64,000 bases of DNA from positions 43,670 to 107,669 of the forward strand of contig JAUZOD010000008.1 of the NCBI GenBank assembly GCA_030706635.1, in the 5' to 3' direction. The stretch's first letter is position 1. Every line of letters begins with the position of its first letter. Of the stretch, positions 12,860-59,786 are shown one piece after another. The translations under genes and the position numbers were made by a program. This DNA is from Bacteroidota bacterium. GTDB taxonomy: Bacteria; Bacteroidota; Bacteroidia; Chitinophagales; Chitinophagaceae. The notes beneath the pieces are model-generated. The model searched no databases. It was given only the letters and a program-made list of their open reading frames with translations, and had not been told where the DNA came from.

Positions 12860-13924
12860 ATGAAAAGACTTTTATTGTTGGGCTTTGCATTCATTGCCCT
12901 TGTGCTGAATTCCCGTGCAGATGCCTTAAAGAGAGACAAAACTTCCGTTTCACTTTGTTTACCCATCGACACCAGCGACCTCAGTAACGGCTTGGATAAT
13001 CTGTTTCTGGCCTCGGTCAGGGGCAGCAACGGAGCCCTGCTGAATCCCCGTGCGATAAACTATGTGAAGGATTTCATGGCCAAGAACAGGAAAGATCTCG
13101 AGGAAATCCAGTCTGCCGGACGCTCTTATTTAAGACTGATTGACGGTATTTTAAGCCAATACGGGCTTCCCAGCCAGCTTAAATACCTGGCCATGATTGA
13201 ATCCGAACTCAAACCTACGGCAGTTTCCTGCGTTGGGGCAGCGGGTCCCTGGCAATTAATGCCGGCCACAGCCCGCATTTTGGGCCTTAAGGTGAACCGC
13301 AGGGTGGATGAAAGGAAAAACTACCGGAAGAGCACCCAGGCAGCGGCCGCTTACCTGAAAGACCTGTATGCCGAATTCGGCGATTGGCTACTGGTGATTG
13401 CAGCCTATAATGGCGGGGACGGCAATGTTTACCGGGCGATGAAGAGAAGCCATAGCACCAATTTCTGGAATCTTGAGTATTATTTACCCAGGGAATCCAG
13501 GAACCATGTAAAAAAATTCATTGGCACCCAGTATACGCTGGAAGGTCAGGGTAGTGTAACCACCCTTACCAAAAAAGAAGCAGCCGAACAGCTTTCCGGA
13601 TCATCCATGTATGTTTTTACCAGAAAAATAAATAAGGACGAGGATGCAAATGCAAAAACACTTACTGTTTCCGGCAAATATAATGCAACGGCCATTTCCA
13701 AATATGTCCTCATGGATATGGGAGACTTTAACCGTTATAATCCGGATTTCGACAAGGTGATGGCCAGTGATAATAATAGCTATGACCTGAAGCTGCCTGC
13801 TGATAAAATGGATCTTTTTGTATCAGACAAATACCAGATCCTGAATGAGTCCGTGCAGCAGTTGATGATGGAAGAAAATATAGAGGAAAATAACAAGACT
13901 ATTGCAGGAATTGTCCGTAAATAA
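12860..13924 (+). CDS. Lytic murein transglycosylase (MltD/SLT family)
   Basis: IESELKPTAVSCVGAAGPWQLMPATARILGL...AYNGGDGNVYRA. Confidence 0.88.
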   Translation: MKRLLLLGFAFIALVLNSRADALKRDKTSVSLCLPIDTSDLSNGLDNLFLASVRGSNGALLNPRAINYVKDFMAKNRKDLEEIQSAGRSYLRLIDGILSQYGLPSQLKYLAMIESELKPTAVSCVGAAGPWQLMPATARILGLKVNRRVDERKNYRKSTQAAAAYLKDLYAEFGDWLLVIAAYNGGDGNVYRAMKRSHSTNFWNLEYYLPRESRNHVKKFIGTQYTLEGQGSVTTLTKKEAAEQLSGSSMYVFTRKINKDEDANAKTLTVSGKYNATAISKYVLMDMGDFNRYNPDFDKVMASDNNSYDLKLPADKMDLFVSDKYQILNESVQQLMMEENIEENNKTIAGIVRK

Positions 13925-13950
13925 ATAACAAGGTCGCTTTCATTAACCGT

Positions 13951-13984
13951 ACCCCTGGCCTTCACCTTCAGGCAGGGGTTTTTA
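13951..13984 (+). terminator. Intrinsic terminator after the transglycosylase gene, overlapping the pabB 3' end
   Basis: ACCCCTG...CAGGGGT followed by T-run. Confidence 0.65.
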
Positions 13985-15269
13985 GTATTTCTTCCATTGC
14001 GGAGATCTTCATCAGGCATTCTTCATATTCTTTTTCCGGATCACTGCCGGAAGTAATGCCCGAGCCGGCAAAATAAGCGAGATAATGGTTATGCTGGTTA
14101 TACAGCAGACTTCTGATGACCACATTGAAATCAAAATCCTGATTGGGTTTCACATAACCAACAGCGCCTGAAAATAATCCGCGTTTTGTTTTTTCATATT
14201 GCTCAATTAATTCCAGTACCCGTTTCTTGGGCGCCCCGGTCATGGACCCCATGGGAAAGGTAGACGAGATCATCTCCGTCCAGTGCAACCCCGGTTTCAA
14301 CCTGCCTTGTATTGTAGAAATCATCTGATGAACCTGGGGGAAACTATAAATGCCAAAAAGCTCTTCCACTTTTACCGTATCCGGCTTACAAATACGGGAA
14401 AGGTCGTTGCGTACCAGATCAACCACCATTACATTTTCGGCACGGTCTTTTTCGCTGTTCAGCAAACTCTGCCTCAATTCTTCATCCTGCTGTTTGTTCT
14501 GCAGGTCCCTGGGGGCTGTGCCCTTGATGGGTTGTGAGACAATCAGGTCGCCCCTCCTTTTCAGGTATCTTTCAGGGCTGGCGCAGAGTAAAAATTTTCC
14601 TGCCAGAGTATAATAGGCCGAAAAAGGGGATGGAGAAATCCGGTTCAGCGCCTGGAACAGCGGCATCGGATCTATGATTGCCTGTTCTGCATAAAACTCC
14701 TGACAGAAATTAATTTCGTAACAATCCCCGCGTAAAATATGTTCCTTCAACCGCTCAACAATGTGAATATATTCCGCTTTCTGCAAACGTTGACGGATAA
14801 CGGTTTCCGGCAATTGTTCTTTAACTTCTACATGCGCGGAAGCCGCCTGGATTTCACTTAATATCCTGTCATGCTGGTCCTGAAACGATCCGATACTTAA
14901 GCGGTCATGGTTTAACAGGATGATGGTTTCCGGAATAAAAAAGAAAAGGTCGGGAAAGCCGATGGCATCCGGCAGATGAGCAGGAACCGATTCCGTTTCG
15001 GATTTCAGGTCAAACGAGAGATGACCAAAAAGCCAGTCATTCTGTTGTGAAGAAAAATGTTTGAGTTGATTGAAAGCATCGCCTGCCCGAGCCTCCACAC
15101 GGGATCTTTCTCCAACGGCAGCAATACACTCGAAAGAGTGTGTGCTGGATTTGTATTGCTGGTTATCCAAAAAACAACAGGTATTAAACCGGGCTGACCA
15201 ATTTAATACCTGTTGTTTTACTTTATACAGATCGTGTACGGGAAAAGAAACAAAAGCGCGGCTAGCCAT
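13968..15269 (-). CDS. pabB: Aminodeoxychorismate synthase component I / chorismate-binding enzyme
   Basis: ILRGDCYEINFCQEFYA, SPSPFSAYYTLAGKFLLCASPERYLKR, QPIKGTAPR, FPMGSMTGAPKKRVLELIEQYE, YFAGSGITSGSDPEKEYEECLMK. Confidence 0.92.
   Translation of the reverse strand: MASRAFVSFPVHDLYKVKQQVLNWSARFNTCCFLDNQQYKSSTHSFECIAAVGERSRVEARAGDAFNQLKHFSSQQNDWLFGHLSFDLKSETESVPAHLPDAIGFPDLFFFIPETIILLNHDRLSIGSFQDQHDRILSEIQAASAHVEVKEQLPETVIRQRLQKAEYIHIVERLKEHILRGDCYEINFCQEFYAEQAIIDPMPLFQALNRISPSPFSAYYTLAGKFLLCASPERYLKRRGDLIVSQPIKGTAPRDLQNKQQDEELRQSLLNSEKDRAENVMVVDLVRNDLSRICKPDTVKVEELFGIYSFPQVHQMISTIQGRLKPGLHWTEMISSTFPMGSMTGAPKKRVLELIEQYEKTKRGLFSGAVGYVKPNQDFDFNVVIRSLLYNQHNHYLAYFAGSGITSGSDPEKEYEECLMKISAMEEILKTPA
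15119..15161. repeat. 10-bp inverted repeat with nested 6-bp hairpin inside pabB coding sequence
   Basis: CAGCAATACA (15119-15128) ... TGTATTGCTG (15152-15161); nested ACACTC-GAAA-GAGTGT (15126-15141). Confidence 0.9.
15171..15219. repeat. 18-bp perfect inverted repeat inside pabB coding sequence
   Basis: AAAACAACAGGTATTAAA (15171-15188), 13-nt spacer, TTTAATACCTGTTGTTTT (15202-15219). Confidence 0.95.
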
Positions 15270-15283
15270 GGAGGTTACTCCGG

Positions 15284-15751
15284 TTAAAAATCATCCTCTT
15301 CTTCTTCAAAGCCATTGTCATTAAAGAGATCCAGGTTTTTGAATTCATCATCCAGCCCCAGATCATCTTCGTCGCTTCCCTTGGCCGTCTTTTTCCCGGG
15401 AACGGCCGTGCCCCCTTTCTTGGCTTTGGAACGGGGAATATCAAATTCATCAAAATCAGGATCCCATTCCTCATCCTCTTCCACCTTATCCCATTCATCC
15501 ACTTCATCTTCTTCAGAGGCGTCGTCATCGTCGTCTTCGTCCTCATCATCTCCTTTCTTTTTTGATTTTGGAGAAGATGTCTTAGCCGTCTTTTTTGATA
15601 ACGTTTTCGGAGTTTCAACCTCGTCATCATCGTCATCCTCGTCGTCGTCTTCCTTTACTTTTTTTGAGGAAGGTTTCGCGGCAGTTGGCTTCGATGGTGC
15701 AGGTGCGGATTTTTTTGAATCCTTTTTCTCCTTATCAGATTTTGATGCCAT
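15284..15751 (-). CDS. Low-complexity charged protein (Lys/Ala/Pro-rich N-term, Asp/Glu-rich remainder)
   Basis: MASKSDKEKKDSKKSAPAPSKPTAAKPSSKKVKEDDDEDDDDDEVETPK...GLDDEFKNLDLFNDNGFEEEEDDF. Confidence 0.7.
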   Translation of the reverse strand: MASKSDKEKKDSKKSAPAPSKPTAAKPSSKKVKEDDDEDDDDDEVETPKTLSKKTAKTSSPKSKKKGDDEDEDDDDDASEEDEVDEWDKVEEDEEWDPDFDEFDIPRSKAKKGGTAVPGKKTAKGSDEDDLGLDDEFKNLDLFNDNGFEEEEDDF

Positions 15752-15840
15752 ATTCCAATAAGATTAGATTGTAAAATTTCAGCGAAGTTTTTAAACCTCC
15801 AAATTTTTTTAAAAAGATTTTTTGGGTTCGCCGGTCCGGG

Positions 15841-17106
15841 TCAGATATTTTCTATCAGTTGGTTACGACCCGGGCCATTGGATATATAGGAAACTTTAAC
15901 TTTCAGGTATTTATCTATGAAAGAAATATATGCTCTCATCGGTCCGGGCAGCTCTCCGTAGCTCCGGATGGCGGTAATATCCGATTTCCAGCCGGCAAAA
16001 GAGGACAGGATGGGTTTTATGCTATGCTGGAGCATCTGGAAAGGAACCTCAGCAGTCTCTTTTCCATCGATCTGGTATTTGCAGCACACTTCCAGTTTTT
16101 CAAAATCATCCAGCACGTCGGCCTTGGTCATCACCAGGTTGGTAACCCCGTTGAGCATGCAGGCATACCGAAGGGCCACCAGATCAATCCAGCCACAGCG
16201 CCGTGGCCGCCCGGTAGTAGCTCCGAATTCGGCACCGGCCTTGCGGATACGATCGCCCGTTTCGTCAGAAAGCTCAGTAGGAAAAGGACCACTCCCCACA
16301 CGCGTGCAGTAGGCCTTGGTCACGCCAATAACATCCCGGATCTTCTGGGGAGCGATACCAAGCCCGGTACAAACGCCCGCCGAAATGGTGTTGGAAGATG
16401 TAACAAAGGGAAAAGTGCCAAAATCAACATCCAGCATGCTTCCCTGCGCCCCTTCAGCGAGAACAGTCTGGCCCTGACTGATCTTATCGTTGATGAAATA
16501 TTCCCCGGGTACAATTTTAAATTGCCGCATGAATTCCAATGCCTCAAAAAATTCTTCTTCCCAGGCAGAAACATCCTCCTGAAAATGAAGACCGTCCAAC
16601 AATTTCTGATGTTTTAGCCGGAGCCTGATGTATTGTGTCGTGAAACTTTTATCCAGCAGGTCGCCTACCCGCAGCCCGTTCCGACCCGTTTTATCCATAT
16701 AGGCCGGCCCGATCCCCTTTAAGGTGGACCCGATCTTTTCATTTCCTTTTGAAAGTTCGGAAGCTTTATCGAGGGCCCGGTGGGTGGGAAGAATGATGTG
16801 CGCCCGCTGCGCGATGTACAGATTCTTCCGGTAATCGATGCCAAATGATTTTACCGATTCACATTCTCTTTTCAGGGTAACAGGGTCGAGCACTACCCCA
16901 TTACCGATCAGGTTAACGGTATTTTCGTGGAAGATGCCGGATGGTATCTGATGAAGAACGATCTTTTGATCATTCACATAAAGCGTATGCCCGGCATTGG
17001 GCCCACCCTGGAACCGGGCAATAACATCGTATCGGGGTGCGAAATAATCCACAATCTTGCCCTTACCCTCATCGCCCCATTGCAGGCCTAAAATAACATC
17101 AACCAT
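15841..17106 (-). CDS. purA: Adenylosuccinate synthase
   Basis: MVDVILGLQWGDEGKGKIVDYFA, QGGPNAGHTLYV, GIGPAYMDKTGRNGLRVGDLL, TTGRPRRCGWIDLVALRYA. Confidence 0.97.
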   Translation of the reverse strand: MVDVILGLQWGDEGKGKIVDYFAPRYDVIARFQGGPNAGHTLYVNDQKIVLHQIPSGIFHENTVNLIGNGVVLDPVTLKRECESVKSFGIDYRKNLYIAQRAHIILPTHRALDKASELSKGNEKIGSTLKGIGPAYMDKTGRNGLRVGDLLDKSFTTQYIRLRLKHQKLLDGLHFQEDVSAWEEEFFEALEFMRQFKIVPGEYFINDKISQGQTVLAEGAQGSMLDVDFGTFPFVTSSNTISAGVCTGLGIAPQKIRDVIGVTKAYCTRVGSGPFPTELSDETGDRIRKAGAEFGATTGRPRRCGWIDLVALRYACMLNGVTNLVMTKADVLDDFEKLEVCCKYQIDGKETAEVPFQMLQHSIKPILSSFAGWKSDITAIRSYGELPGPMRAYISFIDKYLKVKVSYISNGPGRNQLIENI

Positions 17107-17184
17107 CAGTAGTGATTTGCAGTTTACCGGAAAGCCGCAAAAATAAGTGAATGGAAATCAATGAGAAATTATTTTCATTTTTCA

Positions 17185-19422
17185 TCAGCCGTTTTCCGTG
17201 TCAAACCGGTCAACTGAATGTATTCCACTGAGTTGTTTCAGCCGCCGGACGGCATCGTCCAGTTCTTCCTTATCGTGAACGTAAACTTTGATACTGCCTT
17301 CAAACAATCCTTCTTTGGCTTCTACGGTGAGCGCATTGATGTTGATTCTCAGCTCTCCGGAGATCAGATTGGTAATCTTATTGATCACGCCGACATCGTC
17401 TATCCCCACGATGCGGATACCGGTGAGGAAAGAAATCTCTTTATTCTTGGCCCATTTGGTTTTTACCACCCGGTGGCCATAACTGGAGAGCAGCCTCGTC
17501 GCATTCGGACAATTGGTTCGATGGATCGTCAATCCCTTTCCGGTGGTCACAAATCCGAATACATCGTCACCGGGGATAGGCTTACAGCAATTCGCAAGCG
17601 TATAAACGATCTTATCGCTGCTTTCCCCGAAAATAATCAGCTCGGTATCTTTTCTTTGAGCAGGCGATAAATTGGATTCTGGCCTGGATTCAACCAGGGG
17701 CTTCACCGGTTTCGGTGGCTCCAGCCGGTCTCCCAAAAGCTGAAATTCCTTCAGTTCCTTCAGGTCAATATTTTTAACAGCTGCCTGATAATAAAGATCA
17801 AGTGATGAGCTGAGTTTATAAAAGGTCATCAACGCATCTATATTATGCTGATTGTATGCAGCCCCAAAGTTTTCCAGCTTTTTTTGTATGATGTATTTGC
17901 CTTCATCCGCGATCTTTCGCTTCTCGTCTTTCAGGGAATCCTTTATTTTGCTTTTCGCTTTGGCCGTTACTGCAAAGTTGAGCCAGTCTTCCGTGGGATG
18001 CTGTTTGCTGGAGGTTATAATTTCCACCTGGTCGCCGCTTCTCAGCTTATGACTGATGGGCACCAGTTTATGATTTACTTTGGCGCCGATGCACTGCTCT
18101 CCAATGGCGCTGTGGATGGAAAAAGCAAAATCCAGGGCCGTGGACCCGATAGGCATCATTTTCACATCCCCTTTCGGTGTATAAACGTAAATTTCCTCAG
18201 CGAGAAAACTCATTTTGAAATCCTGAAGAAAGTTGATGGAGTCATTGTCTTCCATGTTCAATACTTCCCGGATCTGTTGGAACCATTTGTCAAACCGGCT
18301 TTCATCACTTGCCCCTTCTTTGTATTTCCAATGGGCGGCAAGTCCTTTTTCTGCGATCTCATTCATGCGTTTGGAACGGATCTGGATCTCCACCCATTTA
18401 CCCTGCGGGCCCATGACGGTGGTGTGGAGGGCTTCATATCCGTTGGACTTGGGATTACTGAGCCAGTCCCGCAGTCTTTCCGGTGAAGGCGAATACTCAT
18501 CCGTGATCATGGAATATACTTTCCAGCAATCCGCTTTTTCCTGCTCAGGCGGGGAATTAATAATGATGCGGATGGCAAACAGGTCGTAAACTTCTTCGAA
18601 ACTGACCCCCTTCTTGCGCATTTTGGTCCAGATAGAATGAATGCTTTTTGGACGGCCGTGAATTTCAAAATCAAAATCAGCCCGTTCCATATTTTCACGA
18701 AGGGGTTTGATAAACTCATTGATATACCTTGACCGTTCGCGCTTGGTTTCCGCCAGTTTGCGCGCGATCTCCCTGTACTCTTCCGGCTCCAGGTATTTCA
18801 TGGCAAGGTCCTCCAGCTCGGTCTTGATATTATAAAGACCCATGCGATGCGCCAGGGGAGCAAACACATAAACCGTTTCCGAAGAAACCTTGAGCTGCTT
18901 GTCCCGCTTCATACTGTCCAGCGTACGCATATTATGCAGCCGGTCTGCCAGTTTAATCAGGATCACCCGGGGATCGTCCGTAAGCGTAAGCAGGATTTTT
19001 TTGAAATTTTCTGCCTGTTGGGAACCGTTCACGTCTATCACATTGGATATCTTGGTCAGGCCGTCCACAATCCGGGCGATCTCACTGCCAAAATCGCGTT
19101 CGATGTCATCCAGGCTGATGTCGGTATCTTCCACCACGTCGTGAAGCAGGGCACAGATGGTGGATCTGACGCCAAGACCGATTTCTTCCACACAGATCCG
19201 GCTAACGGCCAGCGGATGAAGAATATACGGTTCTCCGCTTTTGCGGCGCATGGTCTTGTGTGCCTCTGCAGCAAGCTCAAAAGCGTCCCGGACATGCTCT
19301 TTATCCCCAGCTTTCAATTTCGGTTTCAATGAGCGCAAAAGGGCCCGGTATTCTCTTAAAATCAATCTTTTTTCCTGTTCTTCCGTCAGATTATATTTCG
19401 GAAGGGCCGCGACAGTCTCCAT
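17185..19422 (-). CDS. Bifunctional (p)ppGpp synthetase/hydrolase, RelA/SpoT family
   Basis: HD domain (ALLHDVVEDTDISLDDIERDFG), synthetase domain, TGS (YVYTPKGDVKMMPIGSTALDFAFSIHSAIG), ACT. Confidence 0.95.
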   Translation of the reverse strand: METVAALPKYNLTEEQEKRLILREYRALLRSLKPKLKAGDKEHVRDAFELAAEAHKTMRRKSGEPYILHPLAVSRICVEEIGLGVRSTICALLHDVVEDTDISLDDIERDFGSEIARIVDGLTKISNVIDVNGSQQAENFKKILLTLTDDPRVILIKLADRLHNMRTLDSMKRDKQLKVSSETVYVFAPLAHRMGLYNIKTELEDLAMKYLEPEEYREIARKLAETKRERSRYINEFIKPLRENMERADFDFEIHGRPKSIHSIWTKMRKKGVSFEEVYDLFAIRIIINSPPEQEKADCWKVYSMITDEYSPSPERLRDWLSNPKSNGYEALHTTVMGPQGKWVEIQIRSKRMNEIAEKGLAAHWKYKEGASDESRFDKWFQQIREVLNMEDNDSINFLQDFKMSFLAEEIYVYTPKGDVKMMPIGSTALDFAFSIHSAIGEQCIGAKVNHKLVPISHKLRSGDQVEIITSSKQHPTEDWLNFAVTAKAKSKIKDSLKDEKRKIADEGKYIIQKKLENFGAAYNQHNIDALMTFYKLSSSLDLYYQAAVKNIDLKELKEFQLLGDRLEPPKPVKPLVESRPESNLSPAQRKDTELIIFGESSDKIVYTLANCCKPIPGDDVFGFVTTGKGLTIHRTNCPNATRLLSSYGHRVVKTKWAKNKEISFLTGIRIVGIDDVGVINKITNLISGELRININALTVEAKEGLFEGSIKVYVHDKEELDDAVRRLKQLSGIHSVDRFDTENG

Positions 19423-19466: not shown

Positions 19467-19574
19467 AGTTGACAGTTGACAGTTGACAGTTGACAGTTGA
19501 CGGATGACGGATGACCGATCTCAGGCTCGAATCCGCAATTAAAGTCGGTCAACCGTCATCCGTCAACCGTCAAC
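19467..19574. repeat. Heptad-armed palindromic element, family A (A1)
   Basis: 5 x AGTTGAC + 2 x GGATGAC (19467-19515), core, then inverted heptad arm GTCGGTCAACCGTCATCCGTCAACCGTCAAC. Confidence 0.9.
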
Positions 19575-30026: not shown

Positions 30027-30106
30027 AAAGTTTGTTTTGAATCTGCATTGAGACCTGGTATTAACGCAGATGTTTAAGTTTAGTATTGTTAAACCCTTGC
30101 AAAAAG

Positions 30107-30194
30107 AGTTGACGGTTTACGGATGACGGTTGACCGTCTTCAGGTGCGGATTTCCGCCTAAATTCGGTCAACCGTCATCCGTCAACCGTCATCC
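30107..30194. repeat. Heptad-armed palindromic element, family A (A2), overlapping the MBL gene 3' end
   Basis: AGTTGAC GGTTTAC GGATGAC GGTTGAC - core CTTCAGGTGCGGATTTCCGCCTAAATTCG - GTCAACCGTCATCCGTCAACCGTCATCC. Confidence 0.92.
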
Positions 30195-30964
30195 CTTATT
30201 TCCAGTCCATCATATGCAAGCTCCATGCCATCCGGTAATTCCGCCTGCACATCGACATGTTTTCCCAACTGATGGCTGATGTGTGTAAAATAGGCTTTTG
30301 GTATCTGAAGTTCCTGAACAAGGCTAATCGCTTGATCCAGGTTAAAATGGGAGATGTGTTTTTCCCTTCTGAGGGCATTCAGCACCAGCACGTCACTGCC
30401 AAGGATTTTTTTCTTTTCAGATTCCTCTATCCGGTTCGCATCGGTGATGTAAGTAAAATGGCCGAAGCGAAACGCAAGCACCGGCATTTTCAAATGCCAA
30501 ACCTGCACCGGGATCACCTCAATGTCGCCCACCCAAAAAGGCTCTGTCGTCATGGTGTTCAACCGGATCTCCGGAACACCCGGATAACGAAAATCGGTAA
30601 AGGCATAAGGAAATTCGCGGATAATCACTTCCTGCGTCATTTCATTGGCATAGACATCCATCGGCTTTCCGGAGAAATAATTGAATGCGCGGATATCGTC
30701 CAACCCGGCAATATGGTCCTTATGCGGATGCGTAAACAAAACGGCATCCAGCCGGGTAACAGATGCCCGGAGCATCTGGCAGCGGAAATCGGGGGTGGTG
30801 TCTACCACAAGCCGCGTTGTTTCCGATTCAACCAGTATGCTTGAACGCAGCCGTTTGTCTTTTTCGTCTGAAGAGTGGCAGACCGGGCAGGGGCACGCGA
30901 TCATGGGAACACCGCTGCTGGTACCGCTTCCGAGGAAGGTGACTTTTAAAGAGGGATGATTCAC
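30182..30964 (-). CDS. MBL-fold metallo-hydrolase (PhnP-like)
   Basis: FLGSGTSSGVPMIACPCPVCHSSDEKDKRLRSSILVE; FTHPHKDHIAGLDDIRAFN; stop codon inside A2. Confidence 0.9.
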   Translation of the reverse strand: MNHPSLKVTFLGSGTSSGVPMIACPCPVCHSSDEKDKRLRSSILVESETTRLVVDTTPDFRCQMLRASVTRLDAVLFTHPHKDHIAGLDDIRAFNYFSGKPMDVYANEMTQEVIIREFPYAFTDFRYPGVPEIRLNTMTTEPFWVGDIEVIPVQVWHLKMPVLAFRFGHFTYITDANRIEESEKKKILGSDVLVLNALRREKHISHFNLDQAISLVQELQIPKAYFTHISHQLGKHVDVQAELPDGMELAYDGLEIRDDG

Positions 30965-38753: not shown

Positions 38754-38756
38754 GAT

Positions 38757-38822
38757 GGATGACGGTTGACCGATTTCAGGTGCGGATTCGCACGTAAAGG
38801 CCGTCAACCGTCATCCGTCATC
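38757..38822. repeat. Heptad-armed palindromic element, family A (A4), between convergent stop codons
   Basis: GGATGAC GGTTGAC - CGATTTCAGGTGCGGATTCGCACGTAAAGGCC - GTCAACCGTCATCCGTCATC. Confidence 0.92.
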
Positions 38823-41545: not shown

Positions 41546-41599
41546 AATGAGCCGCAAATATAATAAACGTCCGCTTAAGCTTTTGCTAAAGCGAAATTA

Positions 41600-41678
41600 G
41601 TCGACGGTTGACCGTTGACGGACTTCAGGCGCGGACTCGCAATAGAAGTTGGTCAACCATCAACGGTCAACCGTCAAC
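41600..41678. repeat. Heptad-armed palindromic element, family A (A5), abutting the murF-alr stop codon
   Basis: GTCGACGGTTGACCGTTGACGGA - CTTCAGGCGCGGACTCGCAATAGAAG - TTGGTCAACCATCAACGGTCAACCGTCAAC. Confidence 0.9.
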
Positions 41679-44156
41679 TTATTCATAATAAACCCTTTTC
41701 ACCCGCTGGGAAATGCCCGCCAGCAGTTCATAGGGGATCGTTCCTGCCCAATGGGCCACCTGTTCAACCGGAAGTTCGGGTCCGAATACAATCAGTTCAT
41801 CCCCTTCCCTGGCCCCTTCAATGCCCGTAATATCCATCATGCTCATATCCATACAAAGACTGCCGATGGTTGGAACAAGCTTCCCCCTGTACCACATTTT
41901 ACCTACTCCGCTTCCCAGTGTCCGCGGATAACCATCGGCATACCCCAGCCTCACGGTAGCGATTTGCATGGAACGGTCTGCCACGCCCCTGCGGTTATAT
42001 CCTACTGTTTCTCCTGCGGCGATGGATTTAATTTGTGCAATCGTAGTCCTTAATGTTCCAACCGGTTTCAAATCCAGCAGATGAGAAGCAGCAGGATCAA
42101 TCCCGTATAGGCCAATACCCAGCCTCACCATATCCAGTTGTAAGGCAGGACTTCTGACCACGGCGGCAGAATTGGAAATATGTTTCAGGAAAGGATGCGG
42201 CAAGCGGCGCCCGAGTTGCTCCACCATAATATTGTATTGCTGAAACTGTTTCTGTGTAAACGCATCCTGCTGCAATTCCTCGCTGGCGGCGAGGTGACTG
42301 AAAACTGACTGCACATGAAAGCTTGAAAGGGAAAGGCTTTCCAGCAGCTCCGGAATCTCTCCGGCTGCAAAACCCAGGCGATTCATGCCAGTTTCCAGTT
42401 CAATATGAACGGGAAACATACTGATGGCTTCACGTTTCAGTCGTTTTGCCATAGCGCGCAGTATGGGAAAAGAATACAGCACAGGCTCCAACTGATGTTC
42501 CACCAGGGCATCCAATGCGGATTCCTCGGTATTCATAACGAGGATCGGTAACCGAATTCCACGTTGACGCAGCGCAACGCCCTCATCCGCGTATGCAACG
42601 GCCAGATAGTCTACTTTATGAAATTCCAGCAACCGGGCAATTTCAAATCCACCGCTTCCATAGGAAAAAGCCTTCACCATCGCCATAATGCGGGTGGAAG
42701 GCTTAAGCAATTGCTGATACTGTTTCAGATTATGCGCCATGGCCTCAAGGTTCACTTCAAGCGTGGTTTCATGAACCTGCAGGGAAAGCAGCCGGTCTAT
42801 ACGCTCGAAGCCGAATACCCTGGCGCCTTTCAGCAGAATGGCTTCATTCCGGAATCCATAAGATTGAAAGGACGAAATAAATGCGTCTGTGGAAGTATGG
42901 AATTCCTGGTCTTTTACAGAATCGTTGTCAAACAGACGACGATTTTCCGAAATCTGACTGCCGATGGCGATCAGCCGGTCCACTTTATATTTTTTCATCA
43001 GCATCGCGACCTCCCCATAAAGGTTTTCCGGCGAACGACCGCTCTCCAGAATATCCGACAAGATCAGGGTGCGTTTAGGGTGCTGTTGCTGCAGGGACAA
43101 AAACTCCAGTGCCATGTTCAGTGAACTGATGTCTGCGCTGTAACTATCATTGATAACTGAACAATGATTAATGCCGGTCTGGATTTCCATACGCATGGCC
43201 ACCGGGCTAAGCCGAAGCAATCTCGCAGGCAGCTCCGAAACGGATATGCCAAGATATAAAAGAACGGTTACCACCGTCAGCGTATTCTGCAGGGCAGCAT
43301 CATGCACAGAATTGATGCTGAGCGGCCATTGCTTTCCTTCATAAGAAAGCAATAGCTCCGTGGAATTAATTTCTTTCTGCAGGGAAAGCACCTGCAGAGC
43401 AGAACCTTTCTTCCCGAACGAAAAAAGTTTCACACGGGGATATCCAATTCGCCAGGTCTGTATCGTGTCGTTGAGCAATACATCATCCGCAGGGTAGATT
43501 AACGCTGCCGAATCTTCAAACAAACGGAGCTTTTCAAGGATTTTGGATTCCGTATTTTCAAATCCCTCATCATGGGCCCGGCCAATATTGGTAAATATCC
43601 CCAGGGACGGCCGGATGATCTGTGCCAATGTCTGCATCTCTCCCGCTCTGGAAATGCCAGCCTCGATTAATGCCAGTTCATGGGTCGATTGCATCTGCCA
43701 CACGCTCAGGGGTACGCCGATCCTGGAATTATAGCTTCTCGGACTACGCACGACGCGATATTTATCCTCGAGCAACTGGTTCAGCCATTCCTTCACGATC
43801 GTCTTTCCATTGCTGCCCGTAATGCCGATCACCGGGTAATCAAATTGCTGCCGGTGAGCGGCCGCGAGCCGCTGCAATGCCTCCAGACTGTCTTTCACTA
43901 AAATAATATTGGCTTCAGGAAATTCTTCCAGATCCACCGACTGATAAACTATAAAATTCCGCACTCCGCGACGGTAGAGATCATGTATAAAAGCATGGCC
44001 GTCTCTCCGGGGGCCAAACAAGGCAAAGAATAAAGAAGTTTCCGGAAATACCAGGCGCCGGCTATCGGTCAGCAATTGTTCAATTACATCATCCTGCCGG
44101 AATTGCAGCAGCGACCCATTCACAAGAGAAGCGATATGCCGGATGGTATAACCCAA
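41679..44156 (-). CDS. murF-alr: Bifunctional UDP-N-acetylmuramoyl-tripeptide:D-Ala-D-Ala ligase / alanine racemase
   Basis: MurF ITGSNGKTIVKEWL...NDSYSADISSLNMALEFL; Alr LEVNLEAMAHNLKQYQQLLKPSTRIMAMVKAFSYGSG...MVRLGIGLYG...SLCMDMSMMDITG. Confidence 0.95.
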   Translation of the reverse strand: MGYTIRHIASLVNGSLLQFRQDDVIEQLLTDSRRLVFPETSLFFALFGPRRDGHAFIHDLYRRGVRNFIVYQSVDLEEFPEANIILVKDSLEALQRLAAAHRQQFDYPVIGITGSNGKTIVKEWLNQLLEDKYRVVRSPRSYNSRIGVPLSVWQMQSTHELALIEAGISRAGEMQTLAQIIRPSLGIFTNIGRAHDEGFENTESKILEKLRLFEDSAALIYPADDVLLNDTIQTWRIGYPRVKLFSFGKKGSALQVLSLQKEINSTELLLSYEGKQWPLSINSVHDAALQNTLTVVTVLLYLGISVSELPARLLRLSPVAMRMEIQTGINHCSVINDSYSADISSLNMALEFLSLQQQHPKRTLILSDILESGRSPENLYGEVAMLMKKYKVDRLIAIGSQISENRRLFDNDSVKDQEFHTSTDAFISSFQSYGFRNEAILLKGARVFGFERIDRLLSLQVHETTLEVNLEAMAHNLKQYQQLLKPSTRIMAMVKAFSYGSGGFEIARLLEFHKVDYLAVAYADEGVALRQRGIRLPILVMNTEESALDALVEHQLEPVLYSFPILRAMAKRLKREAISMFPVHIELETGMNRLGFAAGEIPELLESLSLSSFHVQSVFSHLAASEELQQDAFTQKQFQQYNIMVEQLGRRLPHPFLKHISNSAAVVRSPALQLDMVRLGIGLYGIDPAASHLLDLKPVGTLRTTIAQIKSIAAGETVGYNRRGVADRSMQIATVRLGYADGYPRTLGSGVGKMWYRGKLVPTIGSLCMDMSMMDITGIEGAREGDELIVFGPELPVEQVAHWAGTIPYELLAGISQRVKRVYYE

Positions 44157-47718: not shown

Positions 47719-47748
47719 AAAATCCCGCTTCGGCGGGATTTTATTTTT
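47719..47748. terminator. Terminator with TTCG tetraloop, near-symmetric
   Basis: AAAATCCCGC-TTCG-GCGGGATTTT then TATTTTTTG. Confidence 0.85.
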
Positions 47749-47749
47749 T

Positions 47750-47828
47750 GTTGACAGTTGACGGTTGACCGATCTCAGGTGCGGATTCAAACCTAAAGTC
47801 CGTCAACTGTCAACTGTCAACCGTCAAC
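47750..47828. repeat. Heptad-armed palindromic element, family A (A6), in 3' UTR of the 47843-50164 gene
   Basis: GTTGACA GTTGACG GTTGACC - GATCTCAGGTGCGGATTCAAACCTAAAGTCC - GTCAACTGTCAACTGTCAACCGTCAAC. Confidence 0.92.
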
Positions 47829-47842
47829 AAAAATATATCGGG

Positions 47843-50844: not shown

Positions 50845-50944
50845 AATGTGCTTATGTGAAAATGTGTAAATGCCCCGAGTTACTCCCTCTGAAAATGAAT
50901 TGTCCTCCATTTTCACATGAGCATATTTCCACTTTTACACATTA
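50845..50944. repeat. Octad-armed palindromic element, family B (B1), between iscS and iscA
   Basis: AATGTGCT TATGTGAA AATGTGTA AATG ... CATT TTCACATG AGCATATT TCCACTTT TACACATT; iscS stop inside. Confidence 0.88.
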
Positions 50945-53423: not shown

Positions 53424-53609
53424 AATGTGAAAATGTGGAAGAGAATGTGTAAATGTGCTGATGTGCTAATGTGAAAATAGCTGAAAAACGTGAATTAAGT
53501 GTCTGATGAGTGTAAATCATCGGCCGTCATTTACACCCGCCTTCGCCAGGCTTCGGCAGGCAAAGCATTTTCACATTAGCACATTTTCACATCAGCACAT
53601 TTACCCATT
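53424..53609. repeat. Octad-armed palindromic element, family B (B3), between fabF and rnc
   Basis: AATGTGAA...AATGTGTA AATGTGCT GATGTGCT AATGTGAA AAT ... core GCCTTCGCCAGGCTTCGGCAGGCAAAG (53539-53565) ... CATTTTCACATTAGCACATTTTCACATCAGCACATTTACCCATT. Confidence 0.9.
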
Positions 53610-59194: not shown

Positions 59195-59243
59195 CCGGCC
59201 TGCAAAGGTAAGCAACCGGGGGCTTAGTTTTGGAGTATAGATT

Positions 59244-59332
59244 AATGTGAAAATGTGCTGATGTGGAAATGTGTAAATGGAAGACGCCGGTTTCCCCATT
59301 TACACATCAGCACATTTCCACATCAGCACATT
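59244..59332. repeat. Octad-armed palindromic element, family B (B4)
   Basis: AATGTGAA AATGTGCT GATGTGGA AATGTGTA AATGG ... CCATT TACACATC AGCACATT TCCACATC AGCACATT. Confidence 0.93.
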
Positions 59333-59786
59333 AATACGTCGCGGCATAGTCCACATTCACATTAACCTGTGTGACTTTGCCAGGAATTACCTTAACAGGC
59401 GCCACGTTATTCTGACCGTCAAAATAATTGGCATAGAATAAGGCGTCTTTTTTGGTGAAAAGGGAATATTGACCGGGGGGAAGCGACACCGAGAAATAAC
59501 CACTGGTATCTGATTCTGTGGTTCGAACGAGCCGGGTTTTGATACCGCTGTAAAAAGCAGACTCGTCAACGCGGGTCAGCTGGTTGAGGTTGGTCAGTTC
59601 GTAAATATATAATGTGGCCTGGATGCCCTTGGGGGGACTGAGTTTAACGTCAGGAGACGGCATCCGGTTGCCGGAAACCCAGAAGATATATCCTTCGATG
59701 CCTGTTTTTTTCGCCTGTTTGAATGCCGGAAACAGCAGAATGGGCAGCCATACGACCACAAGCATCATATGTTTTTTAGGTAGCAT
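59331..59786 (-). CDS. Secreted hypothetical protein (carboxypeptidase-regulatory-like fold likely)
   Basis: N-terminal hydrophobic segment; VRTTESDTSGYFSVSLPPGQYSLFTKKDALFYANYFDGQNNVAPVKVIPGKVTQVNVNVDY. Confidence 0.65.
   Translation of the reverse strand: MLPKKHMMLVVVWLPILLFPAFKQAKKTGIEGYIFWVSGNRMPSPDVKLSPPKGIQATLYIYELTNLNQLTRVDESAFYSGIKTRLVRTTESDTSGYFSVSLPPGQYSLFTKKDALFYANYFDGQNNVAPVKVIPGKVTQVNVNVDYAATY

Follow-up and report, generated by a model that had tools for sequence, protein, structure and literature searches.

A conserved RNA hairpin within the pabB coding sequence of Chitinophagaceae, possibly acting as an intragenic attenuator

Attenuators of the leader-peptide and TRAP types control tryptophan and folate genes. 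The TRAP attenuation of the trp operon has been described (PMC3913778). In E. coli, Term-seq found premature RNA 3' ends to be widespread inside ORFs, and some of these sites, such as aceK int, are predicted to be intrinsic and affect the host gene (PMC7815308). A translating ribosome blocks an intrinsic terminator hairpin, as observed with a pyrL reporter (PMC5021804), and terminators that closely follow a gene are repressed, with the distance to the end of the upstream gene being important (PMC4824070).

The window analyzed here is a 64,000-nt stretch of a 4.58-Mb genome from Chitinophagaceae, a family living in soil and water. The features of its pabB locus are as follows.

13968-15269, minus strand: pabB (aminodeoxychorismate synthase component I), 433 aa, from ORF, Pfam and NCBIfam analysis; host ORF of the hairpin
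15284-15751, minus strand: gene for an acidic, low-complexity protein of 155 aa, preceding pabB at the Chitinophagaceae loci examined
15171-15219, minus strand: whole 18-bp perfect inverted repeat, codons 17.3-33.3, from repeat detection, comparison and folding
15198-15213, minus strand: 5' arm of the conserved upper stem, codons 19.3-24.3, from covariation
15193-15197, minus strand: terminal loop of 5 nt, codons 25.1-26.2, from the alignment; loop sequence not conserved
15177-15192, minus strand: 3' arm of the conserved upper stem, codons 26.3-31.3, from covariation
15169-15176, minus strand: U-rich tail UGUUUUUU straight after the stem, codons 32.1-34.2, from T enrichment and the terminator scan
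15119-15161, minus strand: second palindrome, of 10 bp, containing a nested hairpin; present, not conserved and judged to lie outside the element

The pabB product matched Chorismate_bind of Pfam at 3.3e-83, and TIGR00553 pabB was the best NCBIfam model for the ORF, with 303 bits, just below the cut-off of 328. The start codon of pabB in the window is at 15267-15269. ORF-based calls at 93 loci gave GTG in 51, TTG in 22, ATG in 14, and no such codon in the remaining 6. Chitinophagaceae pabB thus mostly lacks an ATG start, which suggests that weak initiation is conserved, or that some species use a rare start codon. An internal start within the stem, at the ATG of codon 21 present in most relatives, was considered and dropped, as the window clade has GTA there. 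The acidic gene sits between purA and pabB in Chitinophagaceae and stops 43-173 nt ahead of the hairpin in the loci examined. The acidic protein, whose C-terminal end reads ...DDEFKNLDLFND..EEEEDDF, had no match in Pfam or NCBIfam.

Like the termination sites mapped in E. coli, the pabB hairpin lies inside an ORF; those sites were RNA-mapped in a single species, whereas the pabB hairpin is known from family-wide covariation and keeps a constant place in one gene (PMC7815308). It shares with the terminators of PMC5021804 and PMC4824070 a hairpin and U-rich tail near translated sequence, where ribosome position would set read-through, but in pabB both belong to the conserved coding sequence of the very gene that would be regulated. 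Attenuation logic in chorismate-utilising pathways would be common to this element and to leader-peptide and TRAP-type attenuators; unlike those, it is located inside pabB, and neither a leader peptide nor an alternative antiterminator was found there. As a covarying cis RNA it resembles the cis-regulatory families of Rfam, but the hairpin region had no Rfam match at gathering score; the only one nearby was the trpB motif RF04312, which lies in antisense and scores 24 bits where 59 are required. In the literature searched, including for coding-sequence RNA motifs of Chitinophagaceae, no account of such an element was found. The kinship with ORF-internal attenuators is one of resemblance in the proposed working. 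What is distinctive is the extent to which RNA pairing has steered the synonymous codons and amino acids of a metabolic enzyme across a family.

A preliminary description of this DNA had reported two consecutive palindromes early in pabB, and both were recovered exactly where it had placed them. The first has perfect 18-nt arms (15171-15188/15202-15219) and a 13-nt spacer. The second has perfect 10-nt arms (15119-15128/15152-15161), a 23-nt spacer, and the nested ACACTC-GAAA-GAGTGT. Both are in-frame coding sequence within codons 17-51 of minus-strand pabB. The 18-bp stem is indeed improbable by chance, with ~3e-5 perfect arms of at least 18 nt (spacer of at most 30) expected per 64 kb of window composition. 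For arms of at least 10 nt, ~2 are expected, so that the second palindrome is unremarkable by itself. Moreover, the second palindrome is broken from the nearest relative, L009, onward and in Chitinophagaceae at large, and was rejected as part of the element for that reason. The two palindromes, described together, therefore both exist but should not be treated as one feature, since only the first is conserved. In the sense RNA, the first hairpin folded at -28.1 kcal/mol, with a z of -7.4 against shuffles.

Only one other 18-nt perfect pair was found in the window, at 30119-30182, inside a tandem-unit repeat array. Facing heptamer arrays (GTTGACG/GATGACG) form hairpins at 19489-19574, 30096-30205, 38754-38819, 41595-41683, and 47739-47833. 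They belong to a dispersed repeat family, for which the 15-mer GTTGACGGATGACGG gave 69+68 genomic matches at no more than 1 mismatch and the reversed control gave 0. A separate second family consists of facing octamer arrays (AATGTGCT/GATGTGCT) at 50845-50927, 53444-53601, and 59241-59335; its 14-mer gave 69+66 genomic matches, and the control 1. The idea that the pabB hairpin is a dispersed element was rejected: its arm had no further genomic copy at fewer than 2 mismatches, and the top match of the covariance model was pabB in the genomes that have pabB.

The comparison was made on a codon alignment of pabB from ~95 Chitinophagaceae, thinned at 97% identity, in which many relatives are metagenome-assembled and the nearest is 76% identical in protein. 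The same codons (18-33) of these genes form a predicted hairpin of ~16 bp with a 5-nt loop, and in the family consensus the G-C pairs cluster near the loop. The lower stem is perfect in the window and in L009, where the 18-bp stem is intact; in most relatives, a 2x2 internal loop at codons 19/32 separates the upper stem from a lower stem of 3 bp. The preliminary description had also suggested that the palindrome was produced by template-switch (quasipalindrome) correction, that is, by mutation in the window lineage. Arms that are perfect over 18 bp solely in the window and L009 agree with such an origin, but across Chitinophagaceae the core persists through compensatory changes, and the relatives already have the 5' arm CAACAGGTATTA unchanged. 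Because the hairpin is maintained, with covariation, throughout the family, rather than being lineage-specific and absent in close relatives, we found no support for template switching and rejected it as the main cause, considering it extremely improbable. It might still account for the final few base pairs added to the lower stem.

Across the arms, third codon positions oppose each other, which leaves the wobble bases free to covary. Positions 1 and 2 of the codons for K-Q-Q-V-L-N pair automatically with those for F-N-T-C-C-F, and synonymous sites and pairing-preserving changes are therefore the telling evidence. The compensatory synonymous changes that the preliminary description had proposed to look for were present family-wide. 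At 20.3-30.3, the counts were GC 20, AT 65, GT 8, and AC 0, with synonymous CAG accompanying ATC and CAA accompanying ATT. At 22.1-29.2, Leu TTG occurs with Asn AAC and Leu CTG with Ser AGC, and at 22.3-28.3, TTA occurs with TTT and TTG with TTC. Amino-acid pairs also swap together, with GTN and ACN (Val-Thr) on one side and ATG and ATY (Met-Ile) on the other; L101 carries ACG...GTC where most carry ATG...ATY, a change from T-A to C-G at two amino-acid-changing sites. With codon backgrounds derived from pabB itself, the F28 codon was TTC in 82/95 sequences compared with 29% elsewhere in the gene, and the N29 codon was AAC in 60/65 compared with 33%.

Covariation was then scored for every one of the 840,456 column pairs in the gene; the logic and pitfalls of such tests, coding alignments included, have been discussed (PMC11234323). 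In an APC-corrected G-test, hairpin pairs ranked 1, 9, 28, 66, 87, and 130. When compensatory double changes were counted on the branches of a tree from which the hairpin codons had been left out (simple Fitch/FastTree), six hairpin pairs ranked 1, 2, 3, 7, 9, and 27, and the branch-based helix score was 27.9 compared with 3.6 for the best unrelated helix. In the named structure, 94.7% of cells were paired, compared with 37-54% in slid registers, and 101 cells were double-changed, compared with 32 in shuffles. RNAalifold recovered 14 of the hairpin pairs unprompted. Under an R-scape-like phylogenetic null, which spreads changes evenly over sites and produces high-scoring pairs in greater number than pabB itself shows, one pair (21.1-30.2) was significant among all column pairs, above every null pair. 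Five further pairs reached E values of ~0.0005-0.03 when testing was restricted to 19 pairs proposed from the window (null counts multiplied by 19/840,456), pairs that grew from the window's own palindrome. Furthermore, when 99 genes, mainly family members with a few outgroups, were recoded synonymously with each gene's own codon usage, 92% were more stable than the recodings at p<=0.05, with a mean z of -3.0. We conclude from this comparison that Chitinophagaceae pabB almost certainly carries a conserved RNA hairpin selected for base pairing.

If the hairpin had no RNA function, codon bias, coevolving amino acids, and the protein motif QQVL...NTCC would have to produce the complementarity. 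The motif is conserved, and the automatic pairing of positions 1 and 2 of K-Q-Q-V-L and N-T-C-C-F is what this explanation predicts. It does not predict synonymous-synonymous covariation at 20.3-30.3, the covariation of Leu TTG/CTG with Asn/Ser, F28 and N29 codon choices that run against the habit of the gene, or folding energies exceeding those of synonymous recodings. The synonymous covariation and the recoding nulls led us to reject this protein-only explanation, for which we see hardly any chance.

The strand was judged at the core pairs that covary, namely 20.1-31.2, 20.3-30.3, 21.1-30.2, 21.3-29.3, 22.1-29.2, and 22.3-28.3. At these six, A-C combinations were observed 0 times against ~56 expected, and G-U combinations 21 times against ~78 expected. 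Since A-C is absent but G-U is tolerated, the structure is assigned to the sense RNA, and by this comparison such a pattern would not be expected from an operator or from an antisense element. An inverted repeat with a short spacer is also what an operator palindrome or a single-stranded DNA hairpin would look like. However, the sequence varies freely while pairing stays, unlike in an operator, and it is the sense strand that tolerates G-T and not A-C; a DNA-level element is very unlikely.

Judged by sequence comparison, the hairpin is found in most Chitinophagaceae and is generally lacking from the other families of the order. The mean z was -3.15 for 11 further Chitinophagaceae members and -0.46 for 37 sequences from other families, 16% of which reached p<0.05, a mild excess; an origin older than the family was rejected on this basis. 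One further family member, G117, has the acidic gene and no significant hairpin, as does the outgroup locus L033. At four outgroup loci (L025, L123, L128, and L029), a purA-like gene directly precedes pabB, and the acidic gene and the family hairpin are both absent. Because the acidic-gene context is nearly constant, the dependence of the hairpin on that gene is hard to test. The divergent Chitinophagaceae pabB of G060 (L180/L184), one of the 11 further members, has a strong hairpin over the same codons in a shifted register (z -3.5), as if position were more important than the particular pairs.

The preliminary description had suggested that the palindromes may be an mRNA structure controlling pabB translation. 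The mRNA structure holds for the first palindrome, with its compensatory changes and G-U tolerance; the anatomy points at least equally to transcription attenuation. We consider intragenic attenuation, in the manner of an intrinsic terminator, to be the most likely function of the hairpin, with a probability of about 0.47. It is favored because of the U-rich tail, the mostly GTG/TTG starts, and the lack of a visible terminator after the acidic gene: the terminator scan of the window found no terminator-like site between the acidic gene and the hairpin. The hairpin is a stable stem-loop with a short loop, as in intrinsic terminators, and was the sole minus-strand site flagged by the scan in 13800-17200, a region with no overall excess of sites. 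A d'Aubenton-Carafa-style terminator score was passed by 62/95 sequences compared with 1.5% of recodings, mostly through the stem. The stem runs straight into UGUUUUUU or a comparable sequence. T at codon position 32.3 was present in 93/95 sequences compared with 46.2 expected (z = 10.1), making it the most T-enriched position of pabB (rank 1 of 421); 31.3 was clearly enriched as well (rank 16). In a covariance-model search of 40 genomes, the non-pabB matches in G009 and G051 were canonical intergenic terminators, which were among the strongest such matches; the G011 match resembles a canonical terminator, and the G000 match (C125) is within a long ORF. Three genomes without pabB keep the acidic gene and follow it with a canonical hairpin-plus-T terminator, which fits the attenuator, although it is also expected of any operon end. 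The short distance from the acidic gene and the four outgroup loci lacking both gene and hairpin likewise agree with an attenuator.

Several observations speak against the attenuator. The window stem is A-U rich for a terminator, with 6 G-C among 20 pairs, about one-third of the 95 sequences do not pass the terminator score, and G117 lacks a significant hairpin despite having the acidic gene. U enrichment past 32.3 is weak (33.3, z = 1.6; 34.1, z = 2.0), and the T enrichment after the stem is partly confounded with pairing to codons 18/19 of the lower stem. However, where 18.3 is G, with which C would pair equally, 17/18 sequences keep T at 32.3, so pairing with codon 18 is not the whole reason for this T.

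Two other RNA-level explanations are live rivals to the attenuator. In the first, which is unlikely on balance, the hairpin would slow the first ribosomes or bind a protein or small RNA, tuning PabB without ending transcription. A coding-region hairpin near a weak start codon, conserved in its helix and not in its loop sequence, would suit this role. The hairpin begins ~45-57 nt past the start, outside the footprint of an initiating ribosome; neither the loop nor the flanks hold a conserved motif to which a ligand or protein could bind, and T at 32.3 when 18.3 is G is left unexplained. In the second, which appears rather improbable, a nuclease would cut the hairpin, or the hairpin would guard the 3' end of the acidic-gene mRNA, so that the cistrons differ in stability. 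The conserved two-gene context and a double helix conserved without its loop sequence are in keeping with mRNA processing, but selection for a U tail is not predicted by it.

We commit to the attenuator because ribosomes block terminators, terminators at gene ends are repressed, and premature 3' ends within ORFs are widespread in E. coli. From the hairpin, its covariation, strand, family restriction, U-rich tail, and syntenic context, all of which come from comparison and computation, we infer termination, its coupling to translation, and a physiological purpose as follows. RNA polymerase would read through the acidic gene into pabB and transcribe the hairpin and then the U-rich tract, where a fraction of transcripts would end. 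By this partial termination, the acidic gene would be made in excess over pabB, and PabB would be kept relatively low. A ribosome starting promptly at the usually weak pabB start would cover the 5' arm, allowing the polymerase to read on, so that translation of pabB would relieve the attenuation.

At somewhat less than even odds, a family-wide regulatory RNA in pabB may both drive the coevolution of PabB residues and set the ratio of acidic protein to PabB through translation-controlled internal termination. Val21-Thr30 versus Met21-Ile30, and Gln20-Cys31 versus Lys20-Phe31, may then coevolve via codon pairing and not residue contact. Residue coevolution can stem from RNA pairing, which is a warning for its interpretation. 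Structured-RNA searches usually omit coding regions, and the pabB hairpin offers a test case of regulatory RNA written over protein sequence, even driving amino-acid substitutions. In Chitinophagaceae, pabB holds a second message, which is probably a volume control of its own expression.
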